From Bacteroidales bacterium (GTDB lineage: Bacteria; Bacteroidota; Bacteroidia; Bacteroidales; JAQUTK01): DNA of 64,000 nt. Position numbers and translations under genes: made by a program. Position 1 is the first letter of the stretch; each line of letters starts with the position of its first letter. The notes beneath the pieces are model-generated. The model did no database searches, had not been told where the DNA came from, and worked only from the letters and a program-made list of their open reading frames with translations. The stretch is from NCBI GenBank assembly GCA_028709785.1, contig JAQUTK010000003.1:71607-135606 (forward strand), in the 5' to 3' direction. This document shows, piece after piece, positions 740 through 29,978 of this stretch.

Positions 740-3427
740 TTATGGATTTAGATTGATCTGTTGTCTCTGCGTGCCGATATGACCGTTCAAGTCAGTGCCT
801 TCGATTTCTAATTGAAGGTTGCCTTTCATATAAGCACCTACCGGGAAGGAGACTTCCACATCTTGCTCGCCGTTTGTCAGCAAGGTGGGATTCCAGAAAT
901 AGACCTGCTTTTTATCATAGTCGATCTGATCGATCGGATCTTTCGGATAGTATTTTGGCACGTAAAAGTTTTTAGGGATAGAACCTCCACGTATTTCTGA
1001 ATAATAGACAGTCGATGGTATTCTGCCACGTGGACCTTTTCCCGATCTGGTGGTGATTACAACCACAACACCGATTATACGGCCATATCTAGCCAGTGTT
1101 GGGAAAATATCTTCGTACCATAGAAGATTATCTTTTGTTGTCAGGACTTCAATGCCTCTGACATCATTCCCTGCAATCCTTGATAGTGTTTCATTATAAT
1201 AGATCATCCAACTATATTCTGTCGGAAAGATTATAGGATCCCGAGTTAGACATTCCGCATCCACCTGAAAAGAAACGATCTTTCCATCTATATTATAGTA
1301 ATCAAATTGACGGGGCTCATAGAAGCCATCAGAGTCTGCTAAAGTTCTGCTGTTCAAAACAAATCCCGGAACTTCGGCTTTAAGGATATCCAAAACATTG
1401 TTATAGGCATCGTATTGTCCGATTTGCACCGAGTCAATGAGGATGTCTGCCACTCCGCTGCCGTTTTTATTCCAGGACTTTTTGATTTTCTTTCGTTCAG
1501 TCACCGTGACTTCCGGGAGCAGGTTGATCCCTCTTTGCTTGCGGAGACTATCCATAAATGCTTTATCATCTTCTATGTTCTCCTGATATCCAAGCATCAG
1601 AGACTCTACTTCTTCTGATTCATAGAGATAATCTTCGATTGGAACGATAGGGAATTCAGGCTTCTCAAATATTGAGTCGAACTTAATGCCGAGTCCTGTG
1701 GTTCTTTTTTTCATCTCTTTCTCAATCTTCAGCCGTACCATGGAGGTTTCCCTGACATCCAGATTTGAGAATGCGAAACGTCCTTTGGGATCTGTTCGGG
1801 TCATATCATATATAAATTTTCCTCCCTGTACGATCAAACTGATCTTTCTATTTTGAACAGGTTTGCCGAGAAGGTTTGATACTTTCCCGGAAATTGTGAA
1901 GGCGGTGTCCGGGAGATGTGTGAATTTCTTTCTTGTGATGTCATCCCAGTCGTATCCTCTCCATCCATGGGTGAGGAGGAGTAGGTCGAGTTGTTTGCAG
2001 ATACTGTCATAGGGATTGTTGAAATAATATCCCGGTGTTTCTACAAAACCTTTCAGATCGGAAGAGAGGAGCATCTCTGATCGGAAAGTCTTCTGAATGG
2101 AATCTACAGGTACCCGGTTCTTGTTGGTGACGCTCAAAGCAAAGGCAGACTGAACAGTGGTTCCGTTCATCTGCGGACGGATCTTCAGAGTCATCATCTG
2201 ATCGGTGTCGGACTTGATTTCCCAGTTTGCTTTCACGTCAAACTTCAATTCGTCTTTCCGGTCGATATACACCAGTCGTTCACAGAGTGGCTGTCCGTTG
2301 GCAGTGAAGAGCGTGAGTCGGTTGATGCCGGACTTCAGATTCTCTTTGGGGATTCTGAGTAGGACACGGGACTTGTTCATCCGGATATTATATGCCTCTT
2401 TGGTAGGCAGTCCGCGGGATTCGGCAAGGAGGGTAAACTGTGTTTGGTTGGAGACAACTCCCGTAGAACCATTGACTGCAACAACCAGTGTATCAGAAGT
2501 TGGTTTGGATACAACCATGAGTGTGACTCCTTCCTTTTCGACAGCAGGCAGAGGGATGAGCTGGTCGTTAAAGAGACGGGCGGAGTACTGTTTGCCTGTG
2601 TCCGGCAGCAAGAGGAAGGATCCCATTCCTTTGTGTTCGGAGGTAAAGGAAACAATATCGTTGCCATGCTGATCGACAATAGTACCCTCTACAGGTACAC
2701 TTCTTCCATCGGGAAAGAGTGCTTTGTATGCCACCCGGTTGGCTACCCCTGCGATCAGTTTGCCTCCTTCGGGCAGGAATTGTACATCCAGTTCGAACTC
2801 CCGGTTAGCTCTCTTCTGTGCTTCCAGGAGTTTCTTTTCCTCTGTTTTCCGTTTTTGTTTCTGATATTGCCCTTGTGTGAGAAATCTATTTCCTTCGTAA
2901 ACAAACCGTTTATTCTCCTGTTCCTTGTCTTTGTCTCCCCAGATCGGAATGATCTTTTCGAAGAAGGCGGAGTCGCCAAAGTTCTTCTGCCAACGGGTAT
3001 AGGCACGGATACGATAGAGTCCTTTGTCTTGTATGGCTTTGGTGAGCACAAACTGTCCGTTGGCGCCTCCTCCTTTGAGATTATATTGAGCTTTTTGGGT
3101 CACACTGTCTTTTTCATTGATCAGATCCACATATACCAACCGACTCTTTTCGGTGGGAAGAAGTGTGCCTGCTTGCATCACCCACACCTTGTACCAAATG
3201 GTGTCGTTGAGGTTGTAGATGGGACGATCCGTCTGGATATAGATCTTCTCTTGATAGTTATCCCTCATCAGAGTAGCCATGCCGGTTATTCGCTGGCCCA
3301 GACTTATTTGGTTGTTTTCCGTATCACTATCATCGGGTAAACTATTGCTCCATCCGTTTATGCGTGTGATAAACAAGACAGTGATGAGTAATAGGGGGAA
3401 AATCCTTTTGTTATGAACTGTTTTCAT
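740..3427 (-). CDS. Large envelope protein: MG2-like domain, carboxypeptidase-regulatory-like domain and TonB-plug-like domain
   Basis: The protein has 895 residues and an N-terminal signal peptide (RIFPLLLITVLFIT). Residues about 60-150 look like an alpha-2-macroglobulin MG2 domain (KIYIQTDRPIYNLNDTIWYKV). A beta-sandwich like the carboxypeptidase regulatory domain follows near 515-570 (GKVSNLLGKPVQNRKISL). Residues about 670-790 resemble a TonB-receptor plug (VLDILKAEVPGF...GIEVLTTKD...VVVITTRSG), but no 22-strand barrel follows; the protein ends in another small beta domain. Related multi-domain proteins are common in Bacteroidota and usually have no assigned function. It probably sits in the periplasm or at the outer membrane. 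It stands alone, with a long repeat-rich spacer between it and topA and no recognisable promoter. The YfcE gene converges on it from the other side. Confidence 0.75.
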   Translation of the reverse strand: MKTVHNKRIFPLLLITVLFITRINGWSNSLPDDSDTENNQISLGQRITGMATLMRDNYQEKIYIQTDRPIYNLNDTIWYKVWVMQAGTLLPTEKSRLVYVDLINEKDSVTQKAQYNLKGGGANGQFVLTKAIQDKGLYRIRAYTRWQKNFGDSAFFEKIIPIWGDKDKEQENKRFVYEGNRFLTQGQYQKQKRKTEEKKLLEAQKRANREFELDVQFLPEGGKLIAGVANRVAYKALFPDGRSVPVEGTIVDQHGNDIVSFTSEHKGMGSFLLLPDTGKQYSARLFNDQLIPLPAVEKEGVTLMVVSKPTSDTLVVAVNGSTGVVSNQTQFTLLAESRGLPTKEAYNIRMNKSRVLLRIPKENLKSGINRLTLFTANGQPLCERLVYIDRKDELKFDVKANWEIKSDTDQMMTLKIRPQMNGTTVQSAFALSVTNKNRVPVDSIQKTFRSEMLLSSDLKGFVETPGYYFNNPYDSICKQLDLLLLTHGWRGYDWDDITRKKFTHLPDTAFTISGKVSNLLGKPVQNRKISLIVQGGKFIYDMTRTDPKGRFAFSNLDVRETSMVRLKIEKEMKKRTTGLGIKFDSIFEKPEFPIVPIEDYLYESEEVESLMLGYQENIEDDKAFMDSLRKQRGINLLPEVTVTERKKIKKSWNKNGSGVADILIDSVQIGQYDAYNNVLDILKAEVPGFVLNSRTLADSDGFYEPRQFDYYNIDGKIVSFQVDAECLTRDPIIFPTEYSWMIYYNETLSRIAGNDVRGIEVLTTKDNLLWYEDIFPTLARYGRIIGVVVVITTRSGKGPRGRIPSTVYYSEIRGGSIPKNFYVPKYYPKDPIDQIDYDKKQVYFWNPTLLTNGEQDVEVSFPVGAYMKGNLQLEIEGTDLNGHIGTQRQQINLNP

Positions 3428-3802
3428 GGGCTACTAATTACATTAGAGGTGAATATAGTCTTAAAGGCTCGTAAAAATATGCATTGTCTTTTAATGTTCA
3501 AAATATTTGTAGATAAAAATATGAATGAACGACAAAAGTCCTGAAGATCGGTTGGTTTTGCATTTCTGTTGTTTTTTTGAATTTCGAATTTGAAAACAGT
3601 AAAAAAGTACTATTTCTCTACACCCCTGCACCTTCGAACTGCCTCTCAGTATGCTGTATGCCTTGTCAGTTGTTCAAAAAAAAACTTGCTCCGCATAATT
3701 TGAATACAATTTTATTTGCTAAACAGCCCTTTTTGATACATTTCTGATAACCGGGAAGCAAAAAACGTCGAAAATGCAATCCTCTATACTCCCCACTTCA
3801 TC

Positions 3803-3850
3803 CTCATTGCGGATTTGACCAAGGAGATTGCGGGCTTGACCCGCAATCTC
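3803..3850. repeat. REP-like extragenic palindrome, copy 1
   Basis: A perfect 11-base stem GAGATTGCGGG (3824-3834) pairs with CCCGCAATCTC (3840-3850) around the loop CTTGA. It is preceded by a degenerate copy of the same unit (TCATTGCGGATTTGACC). A second copy of the motif with the same CTTGA loop and the same preceding degenerate unit lies at 29793-29841, so this is an interspersed repeat family. Confidence 0.85.
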
Positions 3851-4020
3851 ATCTGAAAAAGAATCGTGATGAATAAGTGTGTAACACTAAACCGTTTCGA
3901 ACCTGTGAACCAACCAAGAAGAAACTCTTTTAATCAGGGAACATAAATAACCCAAACCGGTAGATTAGTTGTCAGTATCTGCAACCATTGTTCATTTCAA
4001 ACCACGAAACAATCATTTCA

Positions 4021-4067
4021 AAGCACGGAATAGCTATTCCGTGCCGCAAAATAACTATTCCGTGCTT
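4021..4067. repeat. Three-arm inverted repeat with mutually exclusive hairpins
   Basis: Arm A (AAGCACGGAATAG, 4021-4033) is directly followed by its complement, arm B (CTATTCCGTGC, 4034-4044). Together they form the core of a perfect 22-base palindrome at 4023-4044. A third arm, C (CTATTCCGTGCTT, 4055-4067), is also fully complementary to arm A. A can therefore pair with B or with C, but not both. With a zero-base loop A-B is poor as RNA but possible as a DNA cruciform; A-C has a normal loop. Confidence 0.75.
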
Positions 4068-4097
4068 GAGAATGAAAAATGCACCTGTAAGCGATGA

Positions 4098-4146
4098 CTT
4101 TTGCTTTCTGATCAGGAATAGATGGCTTCCTGTCAGAAAGCAAAAG
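4098..4146 (-). terminator. Long hairpin downstream of topA
   Basis: Arm 4098-4118 (starting CTTTTGCTTTCTGA) pairs with arm 4127-4146 (ending TCAGAAAGCAAAAG). The stem is 20 base pairs with one bulged T and a loop of eight bases. It shares its last base or two with the next hairpin at 4145-4173. On the minus strand it would be the second structure met after topA, so it may back up termination. Confidence 0.6.
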
Positions 4147-4173
4147 AGATCAGGAAAGAAATTCCTGATCTCT
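4145..4173 (-). terminator. Probable Rho-independent terminator of topA
   Basis: A perfect 12-base-pair stem (AGAGATCAGGAA at 4145-4156 and its complement at 4162-4173) closes a five-base loop. On the minus strand it lies about 75 bases after the topA stop and is followed by a short run TTTTGC, which is the start of the next hairpin. Confidence 0.65.
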
Positions 4174-4249
4174 GAAATAGAATTTTATATAGCTTGTTTT
4201 GTATAGATGAAGAAACAGCAAGTTCGCTGGATTGGAAACTTTTCAGCTG

Positions 4250-6649
4250 TTATTTCGCTGCTTTTTTCCCTTTAGTCGCCTTAGTCTCTTTCACCCCTTT
4301 TGTCCCTTTGCTTCCTCTGGTCGCTTTGGCAGGTTTGGATGGTTTCGTGCCGGCTTCTTCAATGATTTGTTTGCATTCCTCAAATGAGAGGAGTGCCGGC
4401 TCTTTGGAGCCCTTCGGTATTTTGTAGTTTGTCCCTTTGTAGATGATATACGGACCAAAACGACCGTTGCAGATTTCCAGTTCGGCGTCTTCAGCAAAGA
4501 CCTTGATCTGTTTCTCTTTCTCTTTCTGACGTTTCAGATCAATCAGTTTGATGGACTCTTCCAGCGTGATTTCCAGCGGGTCAATATCTTTAGGGATGGA
4601 GACAAAGACATTATTGTGACGGATATAGGGGCCGAAGCGTCCTACGCCTACCGTAACTATTTTCTCTTCATAACTCCCAACTTGCCGGGGTAGTTTGAAT
4701 AGTTCAAGAGCCTCTTCCAGTGTGATCGTCTCGATGGATTGGTCTTTATTGATTGAGGCAAACTGAGGTTTCTCCTCGTCTGATCCGGCGCCAATCTGCG
4801 CAACTGCTCCAAAGCGGCCGATCTTGACAGACACGGGGCGTCCGCTTTTCGGGTCAATACCCAGCATTCGTTCGCCCACCTTATGTTCCGTTTTTGCTGC
4901 GACAGCTTCTAATACAGATTGGTGGAATTCCTCATAGAAGTTACGGATACACTCTTGCCATTTGATTTCTCCTTCGGCAATGCAGTCAAAGTCTTTTTCT
5001 GCTTTTGCGGTGAAGTTAAAGTTCAGAATCTTTGGGAAAGACTCCAGAAGATAGTCGTTCACAACCATTCCTATGTCAGTTGGCACGAGCTTTCCTTTCT
5101 CTGAACCGGTCGTTTCCGTTTGCTTCTTCTCCTTGATCTTACCCTCTTTCAGAGTGATCAGGATAAAAGAACGCTTTTCTCCTTCGCGCTCTCCTTTTTC
5201 TACATATTCCCGTTGTTGAATCGTAGAGATCGTAGGAGCGTAGGTAGAAGGGCGGCCGATGCCGAGTTCCTCCATTTTTCGCACCAGACTTGCCTCTGAA
5301 TAGCGGGAAGGTGCTTGTGAGAAACGTTCGGTAGCAGCAATCTGATCCATCTTCAGCACTTCTCCTATATGCAACGGAGGCAGGCTGGAGTCATTCTTAT
5401 CGTCTTCTCCATCGTCGTCCACCGACTCGATATACAATTTCAAGAAACCATCAAACTTGATGACCTCTCCGGTAGCAGTGAAATGCTCGTCTCTGGTAGA
5501 TATAGCGATGGTGGCAGTGGTTTTTTCAAACTGAGCCTCACTCATCTGTGAAGCAACCGTACGTTTCCATATCAATTGATAGAGACTCTTTTCCTGTGCG
5601 TTACCTTCGATGTGTGGCACGGCCAGGTTGGTCGGACGGATGGCCTCATGGGCTTCCTGAGCACCTTTGGTCTTGGTCTGATAGTTGCGTGGCTGTGAGT
5701 ATTCCTTACCCATGGCTTCTGTAATCACTTCCTGAGCTGCATGGATAGCAAAACCGGAGAGATTGACAGAGTCAGTACGCATATAGGTAATCTTTCCGGA
5801 CTCATACAATCGCTGTGCAATCATCATCGTCTGCGAAACGGAGTATCCCAGTTTGCGGGCGGCTTCTTGCTGCAAAGTAGAAGTGGTAAAGGGAGGTGCC
5901 GGAGATCTTTTTCCCGGTTTGGTAACAAGATCTTCAATGGTGAAGGATGCTGTATTGCAATCATTCAATATGTTCAAAGCCTCTTCTTTGTCCTTCGGCC
6001 GTTTGTTGAGTTCGGCTTTCAGTTCGATACTCTCACCCTGGGCAGAGCCGGGAAGAAGAAAGGAGGCTGTAATGCGGTAAGAAGATTCGGAAATGAAGCT
6101 TTTGATCTCACGTTCTCTCTCAACGATAAGCCGTACGGCTACAGATTGAACGCGTCCGGCAGATAAGGCCGGTTTGATTTTCCTCCAAAGTACCGGAGAA
6201 AGTTCAAATCCGACAATGCGGTCGAGTACTCTTCGTGCTTGTTGCGCGTTAACCAGATTATAATCAATAAAACGGGGATTCTCAATCGCTTCGAGTATGG
6301 CTGTTTTTGTGATTTCGTGGAAAACGATGCGCTTTGTGTTGTCTTTATTCAGATTCAGAACTTCATGGAGGTGCCAGGCTATTGCCTCTCCTTCGCGGTC
6401 CTCATCGGAAGCGAGCCATACCATGTTTGCTGTGGCAGCTTCTTTTTTCAGATCATCAACCAGTTTCTTTTTATCAGCGGGGATTTCGTATATGGGGTTG
6501 AAGTCTTTCTCGATGTCAATGCCCAATCCTTTCTTCTGCAGATCTCGGATATGACCGTAGCTTGAAAGAACCTTATATTCTTTCCCGAGAAACTTTTCGA
6601 TAGTTTTGGCTTTGGCAGGAGATTCGACAATCACTAAATTTTTTTGCAT
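4250..6649 (-). CDS. topA: DNA topoisomerase I (type IA)
   Basis: The protein has 799 residues and relaxes negative supercoils by single-strand passage. The Toprim domain opens with VIVESPAKAKTIEKFLG (catalytic Glu9) and carries SDEDREGEAIAWHL (acidic metal-binding cluster near 83-87). The active-site tyrosine is in GKITYMRTDS, about residue 289. After the core come topoisomerase C-terminal repeat units of the FGxYI type (VGVGRFGPYIRHNN; CNGRFGPYIIYKG). The tail is rich in Lys, Thr and Gly (KPAKATRGSKGTKGVKETKA), resembling histone-H1-like DNA-binding tails. I chose MQKNLVIVESP (6649) over an ATG at 6667 because a -7 element at 6676-6683 puts the transcription start almost on top of 6667. The gene has its own promoter after a terminator. 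Confidence 0.97.
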   Translation of the reverse strand: MQKNLVIVESPAKAKTIEKFLGKEYKVLSSYGHIRDLQKKGLGIDIEKDFNPIYEIPADKKKLVDDLKKEAATANMVWLASDEDREGEAIAWHLHEVLNLNKDNTKRIVFHEITKTAILEAIENPRFIDYNLVNAQQARRVLDRIVGFELSPVLWRKIKPALSAGRVQSVAVRLIVEREREIKSFISESSYRITASFLLPGSAQGESIELKAELNKRPKDKEEALNILNDCNTASFTIEDLVTKPGKRSPAPPFTTSTLQQEAARKLGYSVSQTMMIAQRLYESGKITYMRTDSVNLSGFAIHAAQEVITEAMGKEYSQPRNYQTKTKGAQEAHEAIRPTNLAVPHIEGNAQEKSLYQLIWKRTVASQMSEAQFEKTTATIAISTRDEHFTATGEVIKFDGFLKLYIESVDDDGEDDKNDSSLPPLHIGEVLKMDQIAATERFSQAPSRYSEASLVRKMEELGIGRPSTYAPTISTIQQREYVEKGEREGEKRSFILITLKEGKIKEKKQTETTGSEKGKLVPTDIGMVVNDYLLESFPKILNFNFTAKAEKDFDCIAEGEIKWQECIRNFYEEFHQSVLEAVAAKTEHKVGERMLGIDPKSGRPVSVKIGRFGAVAQIGAGSDEEKPQFASINKDQSIETITLEEALELFKLPRQVGSYEEKIVTVGVGRFGPYIRHNNVFVSIPKDIDPLEITLEESIKLIDLKRQKEKEKQIKVFAEDAELEICNGRFGPYIIYKGTNYKIPKGSKEPALLSFEECKQIIEEAGTKPSKPAKATRGSKGTKGVKETKATKGKKAAK

Positions 6650-6675
6650 CTTAGGTTCCTTTATCATTTAGCGGG

Positions 6676-29926: not shown

Positions 29927-29978
29927 ATACGGATTGCTTCATCGTTTCACAACTGTGAAACGATGAAGCAATCCGTAT
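29927..29978. terminator. Perfect 24-base-pair hairpin between convergent genes
   Basis: Bases 29927-29950 pair without mismatch with 29955-29978 around the four-base loop AACT. Its site, 21 bases after the stop of the minus-strand HD gene, suggests a bidirectional terminator, although neither side has more than four Ts after the stem. Confidence 0.65.

Follow-up and report, generated by a model that had tools for sequence, protein, structure and literature searches.

What is the large palindrome next to topA, and does it serve that gene? The window, a 64,000-nucleotide stretch of a Bacteroidales genome, contains three complementary arms (4021–4033, 4034–4044 and 4055–4067) beside topA, the gene for a type I topoisomerase (4250–6667, minus strand). 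A sequence-only reading had described these arms as a palindrome able to fold in two exclusive ways and had proposed a conformational switch, a cruciform or a dyad protein-binding site, favoring a supercoiling-sensitive cruciform linked to topA. All three arms are indeed present. The first (AAGCACGGAATAG) is the exact reverse complement of 4055–4067 over all 13 bases; its pairing with 4034–4044, also described as full, extends to 11 of 13 bases (4023–4033). The window contains a single 11-mer with two reverse-complement partners no more than 60 bp downstream of it, and forty 64-kb sequences simulated from a first-order Markov model contain none.

The arms are the middle part of a larger feature, a 96-bp imperfect inverted repeat (3986–4081), which resolves into four adjacent 21-bp dyad units (3992–4075). 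Unit 1 (TCATTTCAAACCACGAAACAA, 3992–4012) and unit 2 (4013–4033, containing the first arm) read on the plus strand, and units 3 (4034–4054, second arm) and 4 (4055–4075, third arm) on the minus strand. Flanks common to other copies lie on either side, namely a plus-strand ‘head’ seen in alignments (3940–3991) and a plus-strand ‘tail’ (4070–4169) that matches profile R1 with an E value of 3.1e-20. The topA gene ends 174 bp from the array, and its intrinsic terminator, found by a terminator search (4145–4173, minus strand), overlaps the tail and is separate from the array. The array itself lacks an intrinsic terminator, i.e. a GC stem with a T run; the terminator-like sites on 3400–4300 are 4173–4145 and 4229–4216. 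On the other side of the array is a minus-strand gene for a protein of 895 aa (740–3427), with an MG2 domain match (30.8 bits) below the Pfam cut-off of 32.8.

Other repeats occur in the window. A palindrome at 3824–3850 (GAGATTGCGGG-5-CCCGCAATCTC) recurs, by eye, upstream of several element copies. A second dispersed repeat (3545–3760) has 23 matches in the same genome and 9 in a genome of the same genus (E≤1e-4); it is found with and without the array and also near genes on contigs C51 and C17 for HU-wHTH proteins, in which an HU domain is fused to a winged helix. A scan of the window for perfect inverted repeats with spacers of up to 60 gave as its longest hit one with 25-bp arms and a 2-nt spacer, far from topA at 29927–29978.

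The topA-proximal array is one of many. When the 96-bp repeat was searched against its own genome (G000; 3.55 Mb in 70 contigs), 51 matching pieces were obtained at E≤10, and 19 distinct places at E<1e-3. Alignment of the copies revealed a common plan of head, array and a tail of ∼100 bp. A profile built from 20 tails gave 32 matches at E≤1e-4, corresponding to ∼31 elements, because two of these matches (on C2) flank one array on both sides. This count may be low, since at least one array known from the 96-bp search, L015, is missing from the profile matches, and of 2558 first-look candidates only 150 were scored against the profile. Among 30 loci inspected, the number of units is four in 26, five in one, two in one and zero in two. 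L117 and L130 are one array read from both sides, and are counted apart in the unit, promoter-box, palindromy and head/tail figures.

At five of the 30 loci, the tail leads into an open reading frame that begins MAKYIKQE, 145 bp after the start of the array; the remaining 25, the window copy included, are without this gene start. The encoded protein matches PF18291 (HU-HIG) at 64.6 bits against a cut-off of 26.2, one of 17 PF18291 matches in the genome, all above cut-off. Pfam describes this family as an HU domain fused to a wHTH, an Ig or a glycine-rich motif. Three proteins fell short of the NCBIfam model TIGR01201 HU_rel (64.2, 68.1 and 48.3 bits; cut-off 68.6), and two proteins tested against defense-system models gave no match. 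In a structure model of the protein (mean pLDDT 82, pTM 0.51), an HU-like part is followed by C-terminal helices with two strands, which we read as a probable winged helix. The best solved Foldseek match is BVU_2165 of Bacteroides vulgatus (4fmr; E 8.2e-6, TM 0.43), followed by HU proteins; BVU_2165 is thus the nearest solved fold by structural comparison, the PF18291 match being that of our own protein. The gene-bearing copies have up to ∼620 bp upstream and the open reading frame in common, with in-register homology stopping at the stop codon. Downstream of that codon, two HU-wHTH loci of this genome, L187 and L188, have another ∼340 bp in common (84% identity), which runs in opposite directions at the two loci.

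The leader of a second HU-wHTH gene of this genome (MAATYDFK...) also contains an array, with 22-bp units; by eye, it is preceded by a promoter-like box and followed by the start codon. This array recurs at four places that lack the MAATYDFK start, each within ∼710 bp of a contig end. A presumed orthologue in the same-genus genome G001 has 22-bp units at the same position; by eye, the geometry is kept and the sequence is changed. In addition, 22-bp periodic sequence precedes the genes of three other HU-HIG paralogues of the own genome, L029, L031 and L037 (scores 0.75, 0.57 and 0.54).

We then asked how general the association is. Using short peptides, MAKYIKQE among them, we found 60 loci encoding relatives of the protein, several from the same genome. 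Nearly all come from metagenome-assembled Bacteroidales, with titles naming Bacteroidaceae, Bacteroides, Mediterranea, Parabacteroides, Prevotella and others. Arrays were sought at 56 of these loci (L064 and L089, with short upstream sequence, and L101 and L103 were set aside). An array lies upstream of the gene in 45 of the 56, whereas of 498 control windows taken at these loci 15 reach the score used; at the other 11, the expected place is without one. The period is 21 bp in 35 arrays, 22 in nine and 23 in one, and the best array stretch begins 141–186 bp before the gene in 41 of the 45. Of the 15 positive control windows, seven have period 22, six of them in loci without a directly upstream array; 22-bp arrays lie ∼980–2460 bp upstream of the HU-wHTH genes of L090, L093, L073, L081, L083 and L091, which lack an adjacent one. 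Palindromy beyond that expected from periodicity (60 permutations each) was seen in 38 of the 44 arrays tested, which came from all array-bearing loci but L076.

In these genomes, too, arrays occur away from the gene. Those of L060, L077 and L095 recur at 13, 7 and 11 further places in their respective genomes (E<1e-5), although some of these places are at contig ends and may be double-counted. Of these 31 places, 27 (9, 7 and 11) were retrieved, and all 27 lack the HU-wHTH start (MAKYIKQ or AKYIKQE). Gene-less copies have no common position relative to genes. Simple ORF calls at 48 of them gave 22 tandem, 12 convergent and 5 divergent neighbor pairs, with nine left unassigned. This count comprises own-genome loci other than L130 and the five HU-linked ones, three of four places of the second family in that genome, and 7/13, 7/7 and 7/11 further places of G002, G003 and G004. 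The idea that arrays as a rule stay out of divergent gene pairs was considered and rejected: such pairs number 0/28 in the own genome and G002, where both neighbors were called, but 5/11 in G003 and G004.

Array sequence is far less uniform than array geometry. Most gene-linked arrays are very different from one another, but the TTTC-7-GAAA units of our genome are also found at L056, L060 and L106. Two paralogues of this genome, 91% identical in the HU part and 79% in the wHTH part, have arrays with a 6-mer overlap of 0.00. Across 31 loci, array similarity is related to wHTH identity with a Mantel rho of 0.13 (P = 0.02) and to HU-part identity with a rho of 0.06 (P = 0.15); these 31 derive from 40 proteins, of which 33 had an array and two (L012 and L100) were dropped as cut or frame-shifted. 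The correlation is too weak for array sequence to be a simple read-out of the wHTH, and we rejected that idea. The array sequence turns over faster than the protein. Given this turnover and the weak Mantel correlation, base-specific reading of the arrays by HU-wHTH is at most putative.

To describe the units themselves, we analyzed 27 of the 30 own-genome loci (all but L128, L132 and L134) for pairing and folding. Each unit has a central dyad. Within-unit pairing averages 6.64 of 10, compared to 5.75 (sd 0.15) for shuffled partners, over 108 units with one array counted twice. Positions 6/16 and 7/15 show paired changes, being T-A or C-G in 82 and 85 of the 108. The unit junctions are near-palindromic as well, with Watson–Crick combinations in 69, 54, 33 and 81 of 81 at four pairs, figures that stand without a control comparison. 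Dyads at both units and junctions imply half-sites every 10.5 bp. Units within one array are more complementary to each other than are units across arrays, least so units 1 and 4. Mean folding energy of the 27 arrays was unchanged when unit order was permuted and was altered when units were swapped between arrays. These results indicate that arrays are coherent in half-site type and give no sign of selection for one long hairpin.

Palindromy is the same with and without the gene: 6.64 in 22 gene-less arrays and 6.65 in five HU-linked ones. Promoters behave otherwise. The −7 box consensus of Bacteroides is TAnnTTTG, and by a strict pattern this box is present at 5/5 HU-linked loci versus 1/25 gene-less loci. 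The window tail lacks both this box and the HU-wHTH start codon. With the box missing in 24 of 25, we discarded the notion that gene-less copies act as promoters.

The palindrome in the window is thus one of the gene-less copies of a dispersed element with four 21-bp dyad units as its core. Taken together, these data make it probable that this core is a binding platform for the HU-wHTH protein, autoregulatory at the gene and dispersed elsewhere. Points against this reading are the fast turnover of array sequence, the 11 of 56 HU-wHTH loci without an array and the lack of a shared gene-relative position among gene-less copies. That scattered arrays and protein belong together is suggested by their co-occurrence. 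Of the functions first offered for the palindrome, a dyad protein-binding site thus fits best, with binding itself a matter of inference. One HU-wHTH dimer would occupy each unit, with a winged helix on each of two half-sites spaced 10.5 bp, or one helical turn, apart, and the HU part would bend the DNA; four dimers would in this way assemble into a single compact nucleoprotein complex. Where the array lies just upstream of the promoter of an HU-wHTH gene, it might mediate autoregulation. Scattered promoter-less copies such as 3992–4075 would offer the protein additional sites, and so either titrate it or influence chromosome structure locally.

Alternatively, a non-autonomous mobile element, a BrickBuilt-like MITE spread by a transposase, may carry the arrays along as passengers; the HU-wHTH gene would then happen to lie inside one form of it, and binding would be beside the point. 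The ∼31 copies with common head and tail accord with this, as do the long shared segment of the gene-bearing copies, ending at the stop codon, and the patchy presence of the gene subfamily (2 of 198 genomes; see below). The BrickBuilt element has the same overall plan, as far as the parts of its description used here go (PMC4596501). To the eye, head and tail seem inversely related, and this inverse similarity reaches P<0.05 in 6 of 27 readings, where one or two are expected, but terminal inverted repeats are absent in the other 21, the window copy has a P value of 0.36, none of seven G002 elements reaches P<0.05, and the element ends are undefined. Moreover, a slipping minisatellite would not be expected to hold to four units, as 26 of 30 loci do, and this account leaves unexplained why arrays of different sequence are linked to the gene in other genomes. 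We regard the mobile-element account as unlikely, albeit with some claim to attention.

Two further accounts fare worse. Gene-less copies could be decayed duplicates of HU-wHTH loci in which the array survived by chance; a likeness to the gene’s leader and its first codons is indeed retained in their tails. Yet their dyads and unit number match those of gene-linked copies despite the near-universal absence of the promoter box, making decay quite improbable. Alternatively, the array may act as RNA, forming a hairpin within a leader or small RNA. In 20 of 27 arrays, the minus strand gives the more stable fold of the two. Folded as RNA, 3980–4090 of the window has predicted energies of −46.5 kcal/mol (z −7.6) for minus and −28.5 kcal/mol (z −4.3) for plus. 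The leader position of the MAATYDFK array would also suit an RNA. However, at the MAKYIKQE-type genes examined the promoter box comes after the array, between it and the gene, all 13 Rfam 15 matches on 3300–4400 are below the gathering score, and folding is indifferent to unit order. A role as RNA is accordingly very improbable.

Finally, a cruciform that responds to supercoiling, or a two-state switch, linked in either case to topA, is almost certainly not the explanation: 3986–4081 does fold strongly as single-stranded DNA (z −5.2 plus, −6.5 minus), but the same element sits at ∼31 places beside other ORFs, and the topA region of G001 is without the array. In that genome, the one relative in which the region downstream of topA was compared, the topA 3′ region is kept, and the upstream repeat and terminator region align. 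It is the one comparable site for target duplications or a filled/empty test, but it is not cleanly empty: where the array would be, an unrelated palindrome was seen by eye (L047, ∼590–840; arms of ∼21 bp). A topA-specific function was rejected in view of the copies elsewhere and this absence, and the intrinsic terminator at 4173–4145 separates topA from the array; the topA-linked cruciform is not supported. As for the switch, pairing of unit 1 with unit 4 (12.78 of 21) is barely above the between-array control (12.33, sd 0.44). Together with the irrelevance of unit order, this led us to reject an end-to-end hairpin as the selected form. Two exclusive folds are possible, as they are in any array of near-palindromic units.

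The binding-platform reading can be extended, more tentatively. HU proteins are mostly seen as recognizing the shape of DNA and not specific sites, and HU/IHF clades were reportedly surveyed by Burroughs and colleagues in 2017. It is possible that HU-wHTH proteins and arrays form orthogonal, genome-specific pairs, in which a nucleoid-type protein has dedicated multi-dimer landing sites across the chromosome. Species, and even paralogues, would come to differ in sequence code but not in geometry, which is mostly that of four 21–22 bp units with a central dyad; BrickBuilt may be a relative. The subfamily is patchy within the order, being found (E≤1e-35) in 2 of 198 genomes drawn at random, one of them our own. 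In G001, a single genome that is 86% complete and was searched with the tail model and, at the topA site, for the array, there is one partial tail match and no MAKYIKQE-type gene, the best HU-wHTH match having 31% identity. An HU-winged-helix family that has dispersed palindromic arrays of its own would provide HU-type proteins with addresses and account for a class of Bacteroidales intergenic repeats. The idea is testable with one protein and one array. The openly licensed PMC literature yielded no description of an array for PF18291 HU-HIG proteins and no account of HU-wHTH genes paired with such arrays.

Several known systems bear comparison. RAYT is a transposase, unlike HU-wHTH, which we take not to be one. 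The likeness to REP/REPIN–RAYT systems, going by the portion of that work considered here, lies in genome-specific dispersed palindromes and a linked gene (PMC2817692). The nearest known element is BrickBuilt of Porphyromonas gingivalis, judging from the sections of its description drawn on, which report 19 intergenic copies with 23-nt tandem units between a leader and a tail, and predicted long stem-loops (PMC4596501). Common to both are intergenic copies with short tandem units between flanks; BrickBuilt unit number varies from 1 to 22.8, whereas our element has 21-bp units, four in most loci, and IS5-like terminal repeats are reported for BrickBuilt (PMC4596501). According to Table 1 of that paper, the shortest copy, BrickBuilt_14, has as its neighbor a gene whose product is a DNA-binding protein of the HU type (PF00216); those sections make no pairing of HU and array, and the likeness is one of description, not of unit sequence (PMC4596501). 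The nearest functional case, as far as the excerpted account goes, is at the P. gingivalis capsule locus, where the HU protein PG0121 and a 77-bp inverted repeat were studied together (PMC3969353). PG0121 differs in being, as described there, an HU without a wHTH, with one inverted repeat and non-discriminating binding; what the two systems share, on that description, is an HU-type protein and a large inverted repeat belonging to one locus (PMC3969353).
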